This document shows, piece by piece, positions 49,237 through 58,214 of a DNA stretch of 64,000 bases. This DNA comes from Rhizobium sp. BK418. GTDB taxonomy: Bacteria; Pseudomonadota; Alphaproteobacteria; Rhizobiales; Rhizobiaceae. The stretch is from the NCBI RefSeq assembly GCF_004341105.1, contig NZ_SLZK01000002.1, forward strand, positions 62,001 through 126,000, given 5' to 3'. The position numbers and the translations under genes are program-made. Numbering within the stretch: position 1 is the first letter of the stretch; each line of letters opens with the position of its first letter. The notes beneath the pieces were generated by a model, which made no database searches, was not told the DNA's origin, and was given only the letters and a program-made list of their open reading frames with translations.

Positions 49237-50466
49237 ATGACCGACACGCAATGGGACGCCGCAAAGGTGGTACCCGGCTCCGCCTACTGGAAACGCAATC
49301 TCGTCATCTCGCTCACGGGCTCGTTCACGACCATCGTGGCGATGACCCTGCTGCTTCCCTTCCTTCCGCTCTATGTGGAAGAACTCGGCGTGAGCGATCA
49401 TGCGGCGATCGTGCAATGGTCGGGCATCGCCTATGGTGCGACCTTCTTTGCCGCCGCTTGCGTGGCGCCACTCTGGGGCCGGCTCGGCGATATCTACGGG
49501 CGCAAGCTGATGCTGGTGCGCGCAAGCCTCGGCATGACCATCGCTATCTCGCTGATGGGCATGGCCGGCAGCGTCTGGCAGCTCGTGGCGCTGCGCCTCT
49601 TCGTTGGCCTCGCGGGTGGTTATGCTTCCGGCTCGATGGTGCTGGTCGCGACACAGACGCCGAAGGACCGATCGGCCTGGGCGCTCGGCGTGCTCTCATC
49701 CGGCATCATGGCCGGCAATCTGGTCGGCCCGCTGATCGGTGGGGCGCTGCCGCCCATCATTGGCATCCGCGGTACGTTTTTGGCTGCAGGCGGCATAATC
49801 TTCCTCGCCTTCCTCGCGACGACCTTTCTGATCAAGGAGGAGAAATCGGCGGCGCGCAAACAGGCGGCGAAGGCATCCGGCGGCTGGAAATCCATTCCCG
49901 ACAAGGGGCCCGTGGTTGCGATGCTCGCGACCGGGCTGCTCCTGATGCTCGCCAATATGTCGATCGAACCGATCATCACCGTCTATGTGGCGCAGCTTGT
50001 GCCCGATCAGCGGCAGGTCACGATGGTGGCCGGCATCGTCATGTCGGCCGCGGCGCTCGGCAGCATTCTCTCGGCCTCGCGGCTTGGGAGGCTGGCGGAC
50101 CGGATCGGCCACTGGCCCGTCATTGCCGGGGCGCTGGCCGTCGCCGGGCTGCTGCTCATCCCACAGGCTTTCGTGACCTCTTCCTGGCAGCTCATCGCCT
50201 TGCGTTTCCTGATGGGGGTCGCGCTTGGCGGGCTGCTGCCCTGCATCGCCGCCGTGATCCGGCACAATGTGCCCGATAGTGCGGCGGGCAGCATCCTCGG
50301 CCTCTCCACTTCCTCGCAATTCGTAGGCCAGGTCGTCGGGCCTGTTCTCGGCGGCTTCGTCGGCGGCCATATCGGTATGCGGGCGGTCTTTCTCGGCACC
50401 TGCGTCCTGCTGGTTGCAGGCGCGGCCTTTGCGTGGCTGGTCCGGCCGAAAGAAGAGGAAGCCTGA
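49237..50466 (+). CDS. MFS drug efflux transporter (MdtG-like, DHA1)
   Basis: A 409-residue, 12-helix transporter. WKRNLVISLTGSFTTIVAMTLLLPFLPLYVEELG is TM1 and its loop; motif A is APLWGRLGDIYGRKLMLV, and TM5 carries GIMAGNLVGPLIGGALPP, the antiporter motif C. QPP-like substrates are drugs such as fosfomycin for MdtG, but the ligand is not known. The ribosome site is weak (GAAGAAGA). It is convergent with the TetR gene at 50470, three bases away, so the TetR protein may regulate the gene on its other side instead. Confidence 0.9.
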   Translation: MTDTQWDAAKVVPGSAYWKRNLVISLTGSFTTIVAMTLLLPFLPLYVEELGVSDHAAIVQWSGIAYGATFFAAACVAPLWGRLGDIYGRKLMLVRASLGMTIAISLMGMAGSVWQLVALRLFVGLAGGYASGSMVLVATQTPKDRSAWALGVLSSGIMAGNLVGPLIGGALPPIIGIRGTFLAAGGIIFLAFLATTFLIKEEKSAARKQAAKASGGWKSIPDKGPVVAMLATGLLLMLANMSIEPIITVYVAQLVPDQRQVTMVAGIVMSAAALGSILSASRLGRLADRIGHWPVIAGALAVAGLLLIPQAFVTSSWQLIALRFLMGVALGGLLPCIAAVIRHNVPDSAAGSILGLSTSSQFVGQVVGPVLGGFVGGHIGMRAVFLGTCVLLVAGAAFAWLVRPKEEEA

Positions 50467-50469
50467 GCG

Positions 50470-51078
50470 TCAGGTTTTGCCGCAGATCATGTCAATGCCG
50501 GATTTAGCCAAGGCCTCCAGCGTCTCGCGGCTATCGCCGGCCCGGGCGCGCACGGCGAGCGAATGCATGACGGCCGAGGCAAGTCTTGCAAGCATGTGGA
50601 CATCGCTGCCCCCGGGCAGTTCGCCGCGTTCGACGGCGAGCGCCATGCGCTGCTCGATCGCGCCGTCAAAATCCTCGAGACTGCGGCTCAGCAGGTCACG
50701 AACACGCTCGTGCTGGATCGCCTCGGCAGTCGCCGTGCTGATGAGGAAGCAGCCGCGAGCGGACGTCTCGCCGTGAAGATAAATCTCCAGGGCGCTTTTA
50801 TAGACCTTCGCGAGATTGTCGCGCAGCGGCAGTGACGGGTCGAGTGCATCGGCCAGCACATCCATGCTTTCGGCCCGATAGGCCTCCATGACATCGAGAT
50901 AGAGAGCCTCCTTGTCGCCGAAGGCACCGTAGAGGCTTGGGCGGTTGAGCTGGGTGGCAGCGCTCAGCGTATCCAGCGATGTGCCGGCAAAACCGCGGTC
51001 CCAGAACACCTCCCTCGCCTTTTCCAACGTTTGCCTGGCATCGAAGGCTCTTGGGCGACCACGCTTCTTCTCGCTCAT
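50470..51078 (-). CDS. TetR/AcrR-family transcriptional repressor
   Basis: A 202-residue TetR protein: KKRGRPRAFD, LEKAREVFWDRGFAGTSLDTLSAATQLNRPSLYGAFGDKEALYLDV is the helix-turn-helix region (about 12-55), followed by a C-terminal ligand domain with GCFLISTATAEA. It is divergent from the glutathione transferase gene at 51190. The intervening region contains a long inverted repeat (51078-51137) that starts at the gene's own ATG, so it probably represses both. Confidence 0.93.
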   Translation of the reverse strand: MSEKKRGRPRAFDARQTLEKAREVFWDRGFAGTSLDTLSAATQLNRPSLYGAFGDKEALYLDVMEAYRAESMDVLADALDPSLPLRDNLAKVYKSALEIYLHGETSARGCFLISTATAEAIQHERVRDLLSRSLEDFDGAIEQRMALAVERGELPGGSDVHMLARLASAVMHSLAVRARAGDSRETLEALAKSGIDMICGKT

Positions 51079-51137
51079 TTTGTACCGTTTCGCATAAAAT
51101 AATTGACCAAAAGAATTTTATGCGAAATAGTACAAAA
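51078..51137. promoter_or_regulatory. Long inverted repeat between tetR and glutathione transferase
   Basis: Arms of 23 bases (51078-51100 and 51115-51137) match at 21 of 23 positions: TTTTGTAC-xx-TTTCGCATAAAAT and its complement, with a 14-base spacer. Each arm could hold one TetR dimer half or a full site. TTGACC (51103-51108) is a promoter-like -35 in the spacer. Confidence 0.75.
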
Positions 51138-51189
51138 GTCCAACGGATTGATGCGGCCGCTCTCGAACCGCCGCAGGAGGAGAAAACCC

Positions 51190-51873
51190 ATGAAGCTCTA
51201 TATGCATGCAGCCGCCTGTTCGCTGTCGCCGCACATCATCTGCCGCGAGCTCGATATCGACATCAAGCTCATCACGGTCGATCGAAAGACGCACATAACC
51301 AGCGAGGGTGACGACTATTTTGCGATCAACGGCAATGGCTATGTGCCGGCGCTGGTGCTGGATGATGGCAAGGTGCTGACGGAGGGACCGGCGATTGCGC
51401 AATTTCTCGCCGACAGCTCGCCTGATGGGCGCCGGATGCTACCGGAATTCGGCAGCTTCGCCCGCAATCAGGTGCAGTCGCTGCTGAACTTCATCACGTC
51501 GGAACTGCACAAACCGATGGTGATACTCTTCGATGCCAACTACACCACCGTGCATGACGCCATGCGCGCGGTCGTCCACAAGCGTCTCGACTGGATCAAC
51601 GGCAGGCTTGCCGGCCCCTATCTCACCGGCGAGGATTTTACGATCGCGGATGCCTATCTCTTCGTTTGCCTCAACTGGTCGCCGTGGGTCAAAATCGATC
51701 TCGATCAGTTTCCGGCGCTTCCTGCTTTCATGAAGCGTGTCGCGTCGCGGCCGGCAGTACTGACGGCACTGAGCGAGGAAGGGCTGATGGCCTTCAATGC
51801 CGGCGGGAATTTCTTTGCGCCGATCGCCTATATCCAGTCCGCCGGTTATATCGGCTCGCCGGTCCGGCCGTGA
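51190..51873 (+). CDS. Glutathione S-transferase
   Basis: A 227-residue cytosolic glutathione transferase, conjugating glutathione to electrophiles. N-terminal thioredoxin-like domain: MKLYMHAAACSLSPHIICREL (Cys/Ser in the catalytic position), then NGNGYVPALVLDDGKVLTEGPAIAQFLADS with the cis-Pro and the ES-like TEGPAI. The all-helical C-terminal domain has LTGEDFTIADAYLFVCL. AGGAGGAG lies 8 bases before the ATG. Divergent from TetR and probably repressed by it. Confidence 0.93.
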   Translation: MKLYMHAAACSLSPHIICRELDIDIKLITVDRKTHITSEGDDYFAINGNGYVPALVLDDGKVLTEGPAIAQFLADSSPDGRRMLPEFGSFARNQVQSLLNFITSELHKPMVILFDANYTTVHDAMRAVVHKRLDWINGRLAGPYLTGEDFTIADAYLFVCLNWSPWVKIDLDQFPALPAFMKRVASRPAVLTALSEEGLMAFNAGGNFFAPIAYIQSAGYIGSPVRP

Positions 51874-51880
51874 TAGAGTG

Positions 51881-51910
51881 CCGGTCCGGCAGGTCGCGCG
51901 GCCGGACCGG
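51881..51910 (+). terminator. Hairpin after the glutathione transferase gene
   Basis: CCGGTCCGG (51881-51889) pairs with CCGGACCGG (51902-51910), loop 12. It starts 8 bases after the stop and runs into the first box of the shared control element. Confidence 0.55.
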
Positions 51911-51957
51911 ATTATCCTTTGATGCTTGATAATCCTTCCGCGACAGCGCGGGTTATC
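51909..51957 (+). promoter_or_regulatory. Three-box LysR-type control element, copy 1
   Basis: Boxes GATTATCC (G 51910), GATAATCC (51928, followed by TTCCG) and GGTTATC (51951). The 18- and 23-base offsets are the same as in copies 2 and 3. The last box ends 53 bases before the ATG of the oxidoreductase gene at 52011. Confidence 0.7.
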
Positions 51958-52010
51958 GGAAGCCTTCGATGGCGGCATCTTTTCTCCATCGAGACCGAAA
52001 GGAGCGAAAG

Positions 52011-52982
52011 ATGACCACAACAGCCGACAAAGCCCCGAAGACGGACAAAACCATGAAAGCTTACCGGGTTCATGCATTCGGACCGCCGGAAGCCATTATT
52101 GCCGAAGACATCGAGATTCCCGCACCCGGCAAGGGTGAAGTTCTCATCAGGGTGCATGCGGCCGGCGTCGGACCTTGGGATGGCTGGATCCGTTTGGGCA
52201 ACAGCGCCCTGCCCCAGCCCCTGCCGTTGACGCTCGGCTCGGACCTCTCCGGGACGGTGGAAGCGATTGGTGACGGCGTGACGCAGGTGGCGCGCGGCGA
52301 TGCCGTTTATGGCGTCACCAATCCGCGCTTCATCGGCGCCTATGCCGAATATGCGATCGCCGCTGCCGGAATGATAGCCCGCAAGCCGGCGAGCATCGAC
52401 CATGTCGAGGCCGCCTCGATACCTGTCATTGCGGTAACGGCGCGGCAGGCGCTGTTCGACCACGCCAGGCTCACCGCCGGACAAACGGTGCTGATTCACG
52501 GTGCGGCCGGCAATGTCGGCGCCTATGCGGTACAATTCGCCCGCAAAGCCGGGGTGAAGGTGATCGCCACGGCAAGCGGCAGCGACATCGAGACCGTCAG
52601 ACGGCTCGGGGCCGATATCGTCGTGGACTTCCGCAGCCAGCGCTTCGAGGACTTTGCCCATGAAGTCGATGCCGTGATCGATCTTGCCGGCGGCGAAACG
52701 CAGACGCGCTCCTTTGCGGTCCTGAATCGCGGCGGCCGGCTCATTTCCGCCGTCTCGCAGCCGGATCAGGAGCTTGCGAAGACATATGGCGTCGAGGCCC
52801 TCTTCTTCCTCGTCAACGTCACAACGAAGGAGTTGAATGAAATTGCCGCGATGGTCGATGCCGCCGAACTCGAAACCAATGTCGGCGATGTGCTGCCGCT
52901 CGATGCGGCGATCGCCGCGCATGAGATGCTGGAAGGGATGCGCCCGCACGCCAAGGGCAAGATCGTGCTGAAGGTTATTTGA
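52011..52982 (+). CDS. Zinc-independent NADPH:quinone oxidoreductase-like protein (MDR family)
   Basis: A 323-residue medium-chain reductase of the quinone-oxidoreductase type. It lacks the catalytic and structural zinc Cys of alcohol dehydrogenases; AGVGPWDGWIRLG follows the N-terminal barrel, LGSDLSGTVEAIGDGV is the typical loop, and the NADPH motif is VLIHGAAGNVGAYAVQFARKAGVKVIATAS (about residues 160-190). It probably reduces quinones or enones for detoxification. The ATG at 52011 has AAAGGAG 10 bases upstream. The upstream element shared with emrA and emrB suggests common control by the LysR protein encoded downstream. Confidence 0.92.
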   Translation: MTTTADKAPKTDKTMKAYRVHAFGPPEAIIAEDIEIPAPGKGEVLIRVHAAGVGPWDGWIRLGNSALPQPLPLTLGSDLSGTVEAIGDGVTQVARGDAVYGVTNPRFIGAYAEYAIAAAGMIARKPASIDHVEAASIPVIAVTARQALFDHARLTAGQTVLIHGAAGNVGAYAVQFARKAGVKVIATASGSDIETVRRLGADIVVDFRSQRFEDFAHEVDAVIDLAGGETQTRSFAVLNRGGRLISAVSQPDQELAKTYGVEALFFLVNVTTKELNEIAAMVDAAELETNVGDVLPLDAAIAAHEMLEGMRPHAKGKIVLKVI

Positions 52983-53032
52983 GGACGGTTTGAGGCAAGG
53001 TCCAGCCGGCTAACAGTCTTGCCGGACGTTTC

Positions 53033-53935
53033 TCATGCCATCCATTTGCGATGCTCGGCGAAACGCTCCACGAGCATGTCGAGGAACAGACGCACCTTGG
53101 TCGGCAGATGGCTGCGGTTGGGATAGACCGCATTGATGTGGATCTCGACGCCGCGATAATCGGGCATCATACTGACGAGACGGCCCGCGGCGAGGTCTTC
53201 GAAGATGACAAAGCTTGGCGCCAGAAAAATCCCTTGCCCGCTCAGCACCAGGTAGCGCAATGTTTCGGCGCTGTTGGAAATGAGGCTGCCGCCCACTTTG
53301 ACGCTTTCCTGCTTGCCTTCCTTGTCCTGGAAACGCCATTCGTCGCCGAAGGGATAATAGGCATATTGCAGGCAATTGTGCTCGGCGACCTCCGCCGGCG
53401 TCGTCGGCATGGCATGGGTCTTCAAATAATCCGGCGAGCAGACGAGAAAATGCCGCCAGGGCGTCAGCTTGCGCGCAACGAGGCTCGAATCCGGAGACGG
53501 TGTCGAGCGGATCACCAGATCATAGCCATCCTCGATCATATCCACCGCGCGCTCGCCGATATTGAAATCGATCTGGACAGCCGGATAGAGCGTCATGAAC
53601 TCGTTGATGACGGGGAGCAGGAAGCGGACGATCGCGCTGCTCGTATAGAATCTCAGCGTGCCGCGCGGCGTCGAACTCAATGCGCCGGCCGTGCGGTCCG
53701 CCTCTTCCAGATCGGCCAGGATCTGCGATGAACGTTCGTAATAATATTTGCCGGTTTCAGTGAGGCTGACCTTCCTGGTGGTGCGGTTCAGGAGCCGCAC
53801 GCCAAGGCGATCCTCTAATGATTGCACATGGTTACCCACCATGGTGACGGACATGTTCAGGCGTCGCGCGGCAGCCGAAAAGCCGCCGCATTCCACTACC
53901 CGGCCGAAGACTGTGAGGCTGGTCAGCCGATCCAT
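53033..53935 (-). CDS. LysR-family transcriptional regulator, divergent from emrAB
   Basis: A 300-residue LysR protein. DRLTSLTVFGRVVECGGFSAAARRLNMSVTMVGNHVQSLEDRLGVRLLNRTTRKVSLTETGK forms the helix-turn-helix arm (about 2-60), and the effector domain has PRGTLRFYTSSAIVRFLLPVINEFM and VDMIEDGYDLVIRSTPSPDSSLVARKL. It is divergent from emrA; copy 2 of the three-box element begins 10 bases upstream of its ATG, so it likely controls itself, emrAB and the oxidoreductase gene that is convergent with it. The window does not show the inducer. Confidence 0.92.
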   Translation of the reverse strand: MDRLTSLTVFGRVVECGGFSAAARRLNMSVTMVGNHVQSLEDRLGVRLLNRTTRKVSLTETGKYYYERSSQILADLEEADRTAGALSSTPRGTLRFYTSSAIVRFLLPVINEFMTLYPAVQIDFNIGERAVDMIEDGYDLVIRSTPSPDSSLVARKLTPWRHFLVCSPDYLKTHAMPTTPAEVAEHNCLQYAYYPFGDEWRFQDKEGKQESVKVGGSLISNSAETLRYLVLSGQGIFLAPSFVIFEDLAAGRLVSMMPDYRGVEIHINAVYPNRSHLPTKVRLFLDMLVERFAEHRKWMA

Positions 53936-53944
53936 GTTGTTCCT

Positions 53945-53993
53945 CGATTATCCAATGAGAGTTGATGATCCTTCCGGAAAACAGGAGATTATC
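53945..53993 (+). promoter_or_regulatory. Three-box LysR-type control element, copy 2
   Basis: Boxes GATTATCC (53946), GATGATCC (53964, followed by TTCCG) and GATTATC (53987), spacing 18 and 23 as in copies 1 and 3. It lies between the divergent LysR gene and emrA, 79 bases before the emrA ATG. Confidence 0.75.
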
Positions 53994-54072
53994 AGAAACT
54001 ACTGCCGGGTCCATCTTCCAGCCATCGAACAAGGCCTCTCACGAACGGGGCCGAGACTGATGGAGAAGGACA

Positions 54073-55287
54073 ATGGTTGAACTCCCCCGCAACGACATTT
54101 TCAAGAATACGCCACAGGGCGGGATCGCCCCGACGGCCGAAGCCGGGGCACCGACTGCAGAAGCGATGGCTGCAGCTGCCGCGGCCGTAGAAGCCCCTAG
54201 GAAAACCGGCCGCAAGATCGTCAAGCGTGCCGTTCTTGCCGCAGCCTTGCTTGCCGGCGCCGCCTTTGCCGGCGACTTCGGCTATCACTACTGGACGGTC
54301 GGCCGCTTCATCGAATCCACCGACGATGCCTATGTGAAGGCCGATTATACGACCGTCGCTCCGAAGGTCGCCGGCTATATCAAGGAAGTGCTCGTCAACG
54401 ATAACGATACCGTCAAGGCCGGGCAGGTTCTCGCCCGTATCGACGACCGTGATTTCCAGGCAGCGCTCTCGCAGGCCAAGGCCGACGTGAAGGCGGCCGA
54501 GGCCGCCGTTACCAATCTCGACGCGCAGATTTCGCTGCAACAGTCGATCATCGCACAGGCACATGCAACGCTCGATGCCTCACAGGCTTCGCTTGCCTTC
54601 GCCCAATCCGATGCCCAGCGCGCCAGCCGCCTGATCACCAACGGCGCCGGCACGCAGTCTCGCGCCGAACAGAGCCAGTCGCAGAAGGATCAGGCTGCGG
54701 CTGCCGTCGAGCGCGATCAGGCCGCCGTCGTTGCCGCCGAGAACAAGGTGCCGGTGCTGCAGACACAGCGCGAACAGGCACTTGCCCAGCGCGACCGCGC
54801 CGTTGCCGCCGCCCGCCAGGCCGAGCTCAACCTCTCCTATACGGAGATCGTCGCTGCTGTTGATGGCACGGTCGGCGCCCGCTCGATCCGCGTCGGCCAG
54901 TATGTCACCTCGGGCACACAGCTGATGGCGGTTGTGCCGCTGCATGCGGTCTATGTCGTCGCCAACTTCAAGGAAACCCAGCTCACCTTCGTGCGTCCCG
55001 GCCAGCTGGTCGAGATCAAGGTCGACAGCTTCCCGGACATTGCCATCAAGGGTCATGTGGACAGTGTTTCGCCGGCAAGCGGCCTCGAATTCTCGCTGCT
55101 GCCGCCCGACAACGCCACAGGCAATTTCACCAAGATCGTCCAGCGCATTCCGGTCAAGATCGTCATCGACGACGAGCGCCTTGCCGGTCTGCTGCGCTCG
55201 GGCATGTCGGTCGTGCCCGACATCGATACCAAGGCCGCCCAGACCTCCGCGGCCGCGGCGGAAGGATTATCCACCGCTGCTGGATGA
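54073..55287 (+). CDS. emrA: HlyD/EmrA-family membrane fusion protein
   Basis: A 404-residue periplasmic adaptor of a tripartite drug exporter. After a 50-residue Ala-rich cytoplasmic part comes a single membrane helix (AVLAAALLAGAAFAGDFGYHYWTV), then STDDAYVKADYTTVAPKVAGYIKEVLVNDNDTVKAGQVLARID (lipoyl half), long hairpin helices rich in Ala/Gln (about 130-255) and YTEIVAAVDGTVGARSIRVGQYV (second lipoyl half). It is related to rmrA/emrA of R. etli, which act in flavonoid and antibiotic resistance. GGAGAAGG precedes the ATG. Its 3' end carries the third control element, and emrB follows. Confidence 0.93.
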   Translation: MVELPRNDIFKNTPQGGIAPTAEAGAPTAEAMAAAAAAVEAPRKTGRKIVKRAVLAAALLAGAAFAGDFGYHYWTVGRFIESTDDAYVKADYTTVAPKVAGYIKEVLVNDNDTVKAGQVLARIDDRDFQAALSQAKADVKAAEAAVTNLDAQISLQQSIIAQAHATLDASQASLAFAQSDAQRASRLITNGAGTQSRAEQSQSQKDQAAAAVERDQAAVVAAENKVPVLQTQREQALAQRDRAVAAARQAELNLSYTEIVAAVDGTVGARSIRVGQYVTSGTQLMAVVPLHAVYVVANFKETQLTFVRPGQLVEIKVDSFPDIAIKGHVDSVSPASGLEFSLLPPDNATGNFTKIVQRIPVKIVIDDERLAGLLRSGMSVVPDIDTKAAQTSAAAAEGLSTAAG

Positions 55288-55312
55288 TCCTTCCGTTCCT
55301 TTCTCAATTATC
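55264..55312 (+). promoter_or_regulatory. Three-box LysR-type control element, copy 3
   Basis: Boxes GATTATCC (55265), GATGATCC (55283, followed by TTCCG) and AATTATC (55306), spacing 18 and 23 again. The first box lies in the last codons of emrA and the second overlaps its stop codon TGA (55285-55287). It ends 52 bases before the emrB ATG at 55365. Confidence 0.75.
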
Positions 55313-55364
55313 ACCCACACAGCGTCATGAGAGAGTTTTCCGCAGAGCCGGAAGGAGATTAGTC

Positions 55365-56987
55365 ATGGCTACGCTTCAGATCGCCGCAAACAGCAATTCC
55401 GTCGCGCGCCCTGTCGCTGCGACCGCCCCCGCTACCAGACCTGCCATGAGCCCGCTTCGCATGTGGTGTGCCGTCGTCGGCTCCACGCTCGGCGCCTTCA
55501 TGGCGATCCTGAACATTCAGATCGTCAATGCCTCGCTTGCCGACATCCAGGGCGCCATCGGCGCCGGCACAGATGATGGCGGCTGGATCTCGACCTCCTA
55601 TCTGATCGCCGAGATCGTCGTCATTCCGCTCAGCGCATGGCTTGCGCGCATCTTCTCGGTCCGCAACTATCTGCTGGTGAACGCGATCCTCTTTCTGGTC
55701 TTCTCGGTCGCCTGCGCCTTCGCAGTCAACCTGCAGCAGATGATCATCCTGCGCGCCATCCAGGGCTTTACCGGCGGCGTGCTGATCCCGATGGCCTTCA
55801 CGATCATCATCACGCTCTTGCCCAAGCCCAAGCAGCCGGTAGGCCTGGCGCTCTTTGCCCTTTCGGCCACGTTTGCCCCGGCGATCGGCCCAACCATCGG
55901 CGGCTATTTCACCGAAAACTGGGGCTGGGAATATATTTTCTATATCAACCTTGTGCCTGGTGCGCTGATGGTTGGCATGCTCTGGGCCTCGCTCGACCGG
56001 GCGCCGATGAACCTCGGCCTGCTTTCCAAGGGCGACTGGCCCGGCATCATTACCATGGCGATAGGTCTCGCCGCGCTGCAGACCGTTCTGGAGGAAGGCA
56101 ATAAGGAAGACTGGTTCGGCTCGGAATTCATCGTCCGCCTCTCGATCATTGCCGCCGTGTCGCTGACGCTCTTCCTCATCATCGAGCTGAAGGTCGCCCA
56201 TCCACTCTTGAACCTGCGGCTGTTTGCCCGCCGCAATTTCGGCTTCGGCATCCTTGCAAACTTCCTGCTGGGCATCGCGCTTTACGGCTCGGTTTTCGTG
56301 CTGCCGATCTACCTGACCCGTATCCAGGGCTACAATTCCGAACAAATCGGCTTTGTGCTTGCCTGGACCGGCATCCCGCAGCTTTTGCTGATCCCTTTGG
56401 TGCCGCGTCTGATGAAGCGCTTCGACATCCGGCTGCTGATCATCGTCGGCTTTGCGCTCTTTGCCGCTTCGAACTTCATGAACGTGCATATGACAGGCGA
56501 CTATGCGAGCGATCAGCTCTTCTGGCCGAACGTCGTGCGTGCTGTCGGTCAGGCGCTTGTCTTCACGCCGCTGTCGGCGATCGCTACCGCAGGCATCGAG
56601 CCGGAAAATGCCGGTTCGGCATCCGCGCTCTTCAATATGATGCGCAATCTCGGCGGCGCAGTCGGCATCGCCTCGCTGCAGACCTTCCTGTCGAAGCGCG
56701 AGCAGTTCCACTCGAACATCCTGACCAACTCGGTCTCCGTCTTCGAGGAAGCCACCCGCGACCGTGTCGCAAGGATGACCGCTTACTTCATGAACCACGG
56801 CGTCAGCGATCAGGCGCTTGCCACCCACAAGGCGATCGTTGCGATCGCGCTGAAGCTGCGCAAGCAGGCTAACATTATGGCCTTCAGCGACACGTTCTTC
56901 CTGCTCGGCGTCGCGCTCGTCGTCGCCCTGCTCGCCACCCTGCTTCTCAAGAAGCCCGCCCAGATTTCCGGCGGCGGCGCTCACTGA
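55365..56987 (+). CDS. emrB: DHA2-family drug exporter EmrB
   Basis: A 540-residue, 14-helix MFS pump that works with EmrA to extrude hydrophobic toxins. TM1 has MAILNIQIVNASLADIQGAIG, motif A-like WLARIFSVRN, motif B RAIQGFTGGVLIPM, and motif C-like ATFAPAIGPTIGGYFTENWGWEYIFYINLVPG, the DHA2 hallmark. The end FSDTFFLLGVALVVALLATLLL is the last helix. The ATG at 55365 has GAAGGAG 7 bases upstream. It lies 77 bases after emrA with its own copy of the control element, so it may also be transcribed independently. Confidence 0.94.
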   Translation: MATLQIAANSNSVARPVAATAPATRPAMSPLRMWCAVVGSTLGAFMAILNIQIVNASLADIQGAIGAGTDDGGWISTSYLIAEIVVIPLSAWLARIFSVRNYLLVNAILFLVFSVACAFAVNLQQMIILRAIQGFTGGVLIPMAFTIIITLLPKPKQPVGLALFALSATFAPAIGPTIGGYFTENWGWEYIFYINLVPGALMVGMLWASLDRAPMNLGLLSKGDWPGIITMAIGLAALQTVLEEGNKEDWFGSEFIVRLSIIAAVSLTLFLIIELKVAHPLLNLRLFARRNFGFGILANFLLGIALYGSVFVLPIYLTRIQGYNSEQIGFVLAWTGIPQLLLIPLVPRLMKRFDIRLLIIVGFALFAASNFMNVHMTGDYASDQLFWPNVVRAVGQALVFTPLSAIATAGIEPENAGSASALFNMMRNLGGAVGIASLQTFLSKREQFHSNILTNSVSVFEEATRDRVARMTAYFMNHGVSDQALATHKAIVAIALKLRKQANIMAFSDTFFLLGVALVVALLATLLLKKPAQISGGGAH

Positions 56988-57017: not shown

Positions 57018-58214
57018 ATGTCCAACTTGCTCGACATCGATTATCCCGTTGAAACCAGGGCTCCCGCGCGCAGCCGCAACACCACCGCTGTGTTCGACCT
57101 CATCGAATGGCTGACCGGTGACGAATGCCATGCACTCGATGAGGTCGGCCTCGTCTCCGGTCTTGGGCGCCGCCTGCGCGCGCTCGGCGTCCCGGTCGAC
57201 CGGCTGACGCTGCATCTGATGACGCTGCATCCGGAATTTATCGGCCGCACCATTGCCTGGGCGCCGGGGGAACCCGTGGAGATCCACGACCGCGAGCACG
57301 GCACGCGTCTCGCCATCGCCAACACGCCGCTGCACAGGGTATTCGAAACACGCGAGATGCTGATCGTGGGGCCGGGTCAGAGCCCTTATGGTCGCTGGCA
57401 GCATCTCGATATCTTCGCCGGTCGTGAGCTTGTGCAGTTGATGATCGCTCCACTCTGCAATGCCGACGGTCCGGTCAGCGCGGCGGTCTTCGGCACCAAA
57501 CGGCCGGGGGGCTTTACCGCCTCGGACATGCAGATGCTCGAACGCATCCTGCCGGCGCTGCGCAATACGAGCGAATTGCGCATCCTGCGCCAGGTCGAGC
57601 TCAGCCTGCTCGACACCTATATCGGGCCGATGACGGCAAGCCGCATCCTTGCCGGCCGCATTCGCCAGGGAGAGATCGAATCCATGCAGGCAGCCCTGCT
57701 GCTCTGTGACCTCAGAGGTTTCACCGAACTTTCCAACCGCCTGTCCGGCGAGACCGTGCTCGGACTGCTGAACGCCTATTTCGACCGGGTCATCCCGGCA
57801 ATCACCCGCGAAGGCGGCGAAGTGCTGAAATTCATGGGAGACGCAGTGCTCGCCTTCTTCCCCGGCTATGATGCCGCCAGCACCTGCAATTCCGCACTTT
57901 CAGCGGCGCGGGCAATCCTCGAAGCGCTCGACGGCTTCAATTACGACGGCATCGGCGCCAGAGCCGGCATCGCCCTGCATCATGGCGAGGTCAGCTACGG
58001 CAATATCGGCTCCGGGCGACGGCTGGATTTCACGCTGATCGGCGGAGACGTCAATCTGGTCAGCCGTATTCAGGGTGCGTGCAGCGAACTTGGGGAAGCG
58101 TTGCTGATGTCCGAGGCGTTTTTTGAGGAGACGAAGCCCACAGATGCAATATCCTTGGGAAGCCATCGGTTGAAGGGCTTCCCGGATGGGGTGGGGTTGT
58201 ATGGGGTGCGGTAG
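57018..58214 (+). CDS. Class III adenylate/guanylate cyclase with N-terminal GAF-like domain
   Basis: A 398-residue cytoplasmic nucleotidyl cyclase. The N-terminal part (about 20-180) looks like a GAF sensor domain. The catalytic domain (about 225-395) has metal Asp in LLLCDLRGFTELS, the dimerisation and second Asp in LKFMGDAVLAFF, and VNLVSRIQ, the Asn/Arg transition-state pair; IALHHGEVSYGNIG is the GxVxGNxG motif. No membrane helix is seen. GGAGG lies 9 bases before the ATG. It lies 30 bases after emrB on the same strand, so it may share that transcript. Its product is cAMP or cGMP, not decidable from this reading. Confidence 0.9.
   Translation: MSNLLDIDYPVETRAPARSRNTTAVFDLIEWLTGDECHALDEVGLVSGLGRRLRALGVPVDRLTLHLMTLHPEFIGRTIAWAPGEPVEIHDREHGTRLAIANTPLHRVFETREMLIVGPGQSPYGRWQHLDIFAGRELVQLMIAPLCNADGPVSAAVFGTKRPGGFTASDMQMLERILPALRNTSELRILRQVELSLLDTYIGPMTASRILAGRIRQGEIESMQAALLLCDLRGFTELSNRLSGETVLGLLNAYFDRVIPAITREGGEVLKFMGDAVLAFFPGYDAASTCNSALSAARAILEALDGFNYDGIGARAGIALHHGEVSYGNIGSGRRLDFTLIGGDVNLVSRIQGACSELGEALLMSEAFFEETKPTDAISLGSHRLKGFPDGVGLYGVR

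Follow-up and report, generated by a model that had tools for sequence, protein, structure and literature searches.

A 64,000-nucleotide stretch of the Rhizobium sp. BK418 genome (contig NZ_SLZK01000002.1, positions 62,001 to 126,000, termed here the window) carries a lysR gene that is divergent from the efflux genes emrA and emrB, together with a quinone-oxidoreductase-like gene, qor. A three-box sequence element is found three times among these genes, as the copies E1, E2 and E3 (Table 1). The LysR protein displays the HTH_1 domain (PF00126, 69.7 bits, cut-off 26.6) and the LysR_substrate domain (PF03466, 138.8 bits, cut-off 28). Two NCBIfam equivalogs were tried for it and rejected because its scores fall short of their cut-offs: YafC (226 bits, cut-off 470) and AaeR (NF007917; 194 bits, cut-off 425). 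In AaeR-AaeAB of Escherichia coli, a LysR protein of the same broad group adjoins an efflux fusion-protein gene.

Table 1. Positions of the genes, the element copies and their predicted -10 hexamers in the window.
Feature	Position	Strand	Remarks
tetR (TetR protein)	50470-51078		
E1, three-box element	51910..51957	+	before qor
E1 predicted -10, CATCTT	51976..51981	+	CATCTT in 5/5 E1 copies examined
qor	52011..52982	+	zinc-dehydrogenase/quinone-oxidoreductase-like gene
lysR, ortholog of salR	53033..53935	-	82% identity to LysR of R. johnstonii 3841 (L084)
E2, three-box element	53946..53993	+	between divergent lysR and emrA, 10 bases from lysR start codon
E2 predicted -10, CATCTT	54012..54017	+	conserved over 77 distinct E2 sequences
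emrA (salA)	54073..55287	+	membrane fusion protein, EmrA-type; stop TGA 55285-55287 inside box 2 of E3
E3, three-box element	55265..55312	+	across emrA end, before emrB
E3 predicted -10, GAGAGT	55331..55336	+	TGA before (extended form)
emrB (salB)	55365..56987	+	DHA2-type MFS permease

The element is 48 bp long and consists of GATTATCC-N10-GATRATCCTTCC-N11-RRTTATC. Box 1 (GATTATCC) starts at 51910, 53946 and 55265, GATRATCCTTCCG follows 18 bases on and RRTTATC a further 23 bases on, exactly so in each copy; the third box reads GGTTATC in E1, GATTATC in E2 and AATTATC in E3. A direct-repeat search recovers the same three near-identical copies, which fall within 3.4 kb. A first-pass annotation of the window had described this recurrence, with its offsets and all on the + strand, and had placed the boxes before qor, emrA and emrB with one beside lysR; the sequence bears out both the spacing and the placement. 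Boxes 1 and 2 form a dyad, GGATTATC-N11-GATRATCC, and all three copies share the spacing ATC-N11-GAT, i.e. T-N13-A. The nod box, the site of NodD, consists of ATC-N9-GAT modules and was rejected as an identification on this spacing.

A whole-genome pattern search, which the first-pass annotation had proposed, finds the element at these three places only. The two-box core GATTATCC-N5..15-GATRATCC with 0 mismatches gives 3 places in the 6.38-Mb genome, and the 48-mer, allowed up to 3 mismatches, gives those same 3; the control, which is the reversed pattern and a lenient one, gives 0 in each case. From base composition, a genome should hold about 0.002 exact two-box cores. A looser 27-bp palindrome, with up to 3 mismatches, gives 82+64 matches against 2+4 for its control; these matches are unspecific, and therefore only the long pattern is counted as evidence. 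Loose-palindrome sites in the same genome were rejected as targets, since three of five regions read (of 10 fetched) lie inside long unrelated reading frames. The sites in the other two regions read, L090 (from 1965) and L091 (from 2003), are similar palindrome-like sequences and were also rejected; they are in no listed frame of at least 120 aa and appear to lie within two related short reading frames.

The three boxes participate in a longer, promoter-like module of 72 bp, box1-N10-box2-TTCC-N11-box3-N18-hexamer. The -10-like hexamer occupies bases 19-24 past box 3 and is 17 bases from the -35-like TTATC(A/G) of box 3. Over the 77 distinct E2 sequences, the ATTATC of box 3 and the A that follows are invariant, and at bases 19-24 the frequencies are C 0.99, A 1.00, T 0.99 and, at the last position, T 0.96. 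E2 would thus have TTATCA as its -35-like and CATCTT as its -10-like hexamer, 17 bases apart. The qor element of locus L059 likewise has CATCTT at this distance, and L079 shows CATCCT before qor and CATCAT before emrA. In E3 the -10 place is mostly TGA-GANNNT, the second A and last T being present in 38 of 52 E3 sequences. Counted from predicted starts 7 bases past the -10, near 51988, 54024 and 55343, the centre of the dyad is at -66 in E1, E2 and E3. LysR proteins are described, in the available part of PMC8407307, with a site around -65 plus a site over the -35/-10 region, and the predicted -66 would fit this layout. Inspection of E2 by eye only showed no convincing separate lysR promoter hidden in it.

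Comparison with orthologous loci, also proposed in the first-pass annotation, shows the element to be conserved at lysR. Scanning with the LysR protein yielded 94 relatives, and the loci of the 80 best were retained; the element was scored on 27 fixed positions and counted at 23 or above within 60 bases upstream of lysR. It is present in 77 of the 80 loci as well as in the window. In Acidisphaera, Ancylobacter, Afipia, Bradyrhizobium and Reyranella, with LysR proteins 63-68% identical, 22-27 of the 27 box positions match those of the window. The E2 spacers vary in such distant genera, and just 4-8 of 21 spacer positions match in these five. At the rearranged loci L059 and L079 the element precedes qor or emrA, and the genome of L066, which lacks E2, carries an element at emrAB elsewhere.

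Two further loci, L040 and L065, keep E2 while emrAB is gone from beside lysR. E2 of L065 adjoins a cyclase-like gene and that of L040 adjoins a piece of a cyclase-like gene and an emrA-like start, arrangements that represent traces of deletion. The L040 genome has emrAB with an element at another place. In the window itself, a guanylate-cyclase-like gene (57018-58214), which matches GAF weakly, is found 3′ of emrB, a position kept in most ortholog loci; no element is directly upstream of it in the window.

E3 is situated at the emrA/emrB junction and scores at least 22 in 52 of 73 emrA-emrB pairs, window included. The TGA, TAA or TAG of box 2 is the emrA stop codon in 38 of the 54 E3 scoring at least 21. 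In the remainder emrA ends 4 to 517 bases upstream (14 cases), within box 1 (one) or further downstream (one). In 40 of 52 a plausible emrB start is found 48-53 bases past box 3; the 12 exceptions are mostly from the R. leguminosarum group or have ambiguous starts. As E3 keeps its distance to emrB while the emrA stop moves, it is tied to emrB and does not simply result from emrA coding. Upstream, the emrB frame of the window continues without a stop to an ATG at 55284, which overlaps the emrA stop (ATGA) within box 2 of E3. The better ribosome site belongs to the start at 55365, but translation coupled to emrA is possible.

The R. leguminosarum group displays a different junction. In six loci (L015, L019, L020, L024, L033, L084) the E3 dyad lies 20 to 60 bases further upstream, and the gap holds box-3-like copies (mostly AATGATC), mostly 20-21 bases apart. 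The last box-3-like copy keeps 25 bases to the -10. In L016 the box-3-like copies are present and the dyad is degraded. This looks like a stepwise multiplication of the -35 half-site.

The element is also found away from the lysR locus. Scanning 78 genomes, which cover the 80 loci (L082 left out, L075 and L076 being one strain), for the 48-mer at up to 3 mismatches gives matches in 76, the control giving 0 in all 78. Beyond the lysR loci retrieved there are fifteen matches, each of them in front of one of the following four genes: emrA (G035, G026, G014, G020, G075), emrB (G020, G075, G017), qor (G031, G035, G078; 73-79% identical to qor of the window) or an SDR oxidoreductase gene (G031, G029, G035, G004; 84-100% identical to that of G031, whose protein is above the NF005075 cut-off). 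The 15 are partly non-independent, as G017 is a lysR locus split by a contig end and G075 a second lysR-emrAB copy; the G078 match is about 6 kb from its E2, and that of G020 about 25 kb from lysR. A genus scan with a 26-mer (up to 1 mismatch) gives matches in at least 91 of 120 genomes and 0 for the control; among the matches listed, some with a single mismatch are probably chance. The SDR gene was rejected as a target in the BK418 genome itself, where it is a remnant without the element (G000:C14:35349-35800, L144), residues 1-74 and one inner stretch being unmatched.

The lysR-emrAB genes are orthologs, in the same arrangement, of the regulator, fusion protein and permease genes of SalRAB, described in R. 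leguminosarum bv. viciae 3841 (Rlv3841, locus L084; Tett et al. 2014, PMC4136779). Identities to the window are 82% for LysR, 80% for EmrA and 92% for EmrB, salR is likewise divergent from salA-salB, and the published salAB coordinates (1392779..1395765) coincide with emrA-emrB of L084. Rlv3841 differs from the window in its rearranged E3 and in having no qor beside salR within the fetched 6 kb. According to the available part of PMC4136779, salicylate raises salA 18.1-fold and salB 2.2-fold in Rlv3841, and a salA-promoter reporter shows no induction in a salR mutant and is restored by salR. Among the other compounds tested there, acetylsalicylate alone induced, slowly and weakly. The primers of the promoter-only reporter fragment map to 1392545-1392906, with E2 (from 1392657) inside and no other copy of the element. 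E2 is therefore in DNA responsive to SalR, and is the predicted place of SalR binding.

The three repeats of the window are best read as copies of one 72-bp promoter-like module, predicted to be bound, and with salicylate activated, by the SalR ortholog encoded at 53033-53935; a probability of about 0.8 is given to this reading. The first-pass annotation had proposed a shared regulon of the efflux pump and the reductase under the LysR protein. Conservation at lysR in 77/80 loci, the matches in trans and the SalR-dependent E2 fragment support the regulon, which is not only a local one. Box 3 does repeat the half-site, as that annotation held, and it also overlaps the likely -35, the unit being the 72-bp module.

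In the proposed mechanism the dyad of boxes 1 and 2 would anchor SalR, possibly as the tetramer suggested earlier, with its centre 66 bases upstream of the predicted start. Box 3, repeating the half-site over the likely -35, would bring the activator into contact with polymerase, and 17 bases separate this -35 from the likely -10. E2 would drive emrA (salA) and, as it starts 10 bases from the lysR start codon, lysR autoregulation would be allowed as well. E3 would give emrB (salB) its own promoter within the operon and E1 would add qor. With E1 before qor, chemical detoxification of a plant phenolic would rise along with its export. The copies, their uniqueness, conservation and geometry, the stop-codon overlap and the position before the same four genes are observed; SalR binding, activation at E1 and E3 and autoregulation are predicted, as are salicylate as the signal in BK418 and the part played by qor.

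Several observations weigh against this reading. All three copies have T-N13-A where LysR sites commonly have T-N11-A; the latter is not obligatory, and the available part of PMC8407307 names shorter spacings also. The starts from which -66 is counted are predicted, not mapped, and the -10 match is absent in 14 of 52 E3 sequences. E2 is missing at L059, L066 and L086. For L086 (Acidisoma, LysR 52% identical) no element is found in the genome at 3 mismatches, nor for L083, which has a weak E2 (23/27); these are the two genomes without 48-mer matches. E1 is found in 4 of the 80 lysR loci only (before qor in L007, L009, L011 and L012). The SDR gene of Rlv3841 has a weakened site, with box 3 off by three bases and still 17 bases from CATTCT. 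This gene is probably not induced by salicylate, since the published induced list, as available, has no tag between RL0272 and RL0577, where its position would put it. Of 73 emrA-emrB pairs, 21 lack E3 or have a weak one, salB rises only 2.2-fold in Rlv3841, and salRAB is treated as an operon in the available part of PMC4136779.

These last points would also suit an improbable alternative in which only E2 is a working SalR promoter, E3 being a relict with emrB read from the emrA promoter and E1 a chance or decaying copy. The loss of E3 in some pairs, its rearrangement in the R. leguminosarum group and the gap between 2.2-fold and 18.1-fold induction all favour it. However, the E3 boxes and their distance to emrB are kept in many Rhizobium species while the emrA end varies, and the low salB induction came from a strain with a rearranged E3. 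The element also accompanies qor in independent places (L059, L079, G031, G035, G078), which argues against E1 as a stray copy.

Slightly less probable still, the element may be the site of another regulator, e.g. the TetR protein or a global stress regulator, its place beside lysR being incidental. A TetR operator is not usually a 48-bp three-box site extending to the -35. LysR binding to the element is itself predicted, and tetR adjoins gst and qor both in the window and in L142; however most of the 80 lysR loci have no tetR within about 6 kb and yet have the element, and the E2 fragment requires SalR in Rlv3841 (PMC4136779, available part). The surroundings of tetR form a cassette in the window (49237-52982: MFS, tetR, gst, qor); L142 (R. 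phaseoli JHI366) has these genes in the same order, its qor likewise preceded by the element.

A short dispersed repeat or a functionless chance similarity, which three near-identical copies in 3.4 kb might suggest, is very improbable, as the genome holds no further copies, only about 0.002 exact cores are expected, and conservation of boxes and not spacers across five other genera already contradicts it.

Compared with LysR-type activator promoters, as given in the available part of PMC8407307, the window has in common the divergent regulator gene and would share the dyad, at a predicted -66, and the half-site repeated over the likely -35. It differs in the T-N13-A spacing, in having only one clear half-site in the -35 part, and in the three copies of one cluster, of which one overlaps a stop codon within the operon. 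EmrR-EmrAB of Sinorhizobium meliloti and RmrAB of R. etli are also rhizobial EmrAB-type pumps that answer plant compounds (PMC6780985, available part). A TetR-like repressor controls emrAB in S. meliloti, and in R. etli a tetR-family gene diverges from rmrAB, in contrast to the LysR protein of the window.

The kind of system, and SalRAB genetically, were already known; new here are the operator, the wider regulon and a probable promoter of its own for emrB. A text search of PMC4136779 gives 0 occurrences of "binding site" and "operator", and its available part describes no operator, salB promoter or qor, and names no target other than the pump. No description of the operator is found in titles or abstract openings retrieved by literature searches, and one may stand inside the text of a paper or in a paper beyond those searched.

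A wider picture, tentative and given somewhat less than even odds, is that of a portable 72-bp SalR promoter copied before each salicylate-defence gene (two pump genes, the quinone-reductase-like gene and the SDR gene), one half-site doubling as the stop codon of the preceding pump gene. Lineages may then tune the ratio of pump parts by decay of that copy or by multiplying the -35 half-site in 20-21-base steps. The rearranged E3 may be related to the weak salB induction in strain 3841, and would offer a reason why salB rises far less than salA there. The module supplies a precise predicted operator-promoter for SalRAB; two more SalR promoters are predicted from it in the BK418 genome, and qor and the SDR enzyme become candidates for the salicylate response across Rhizobium.

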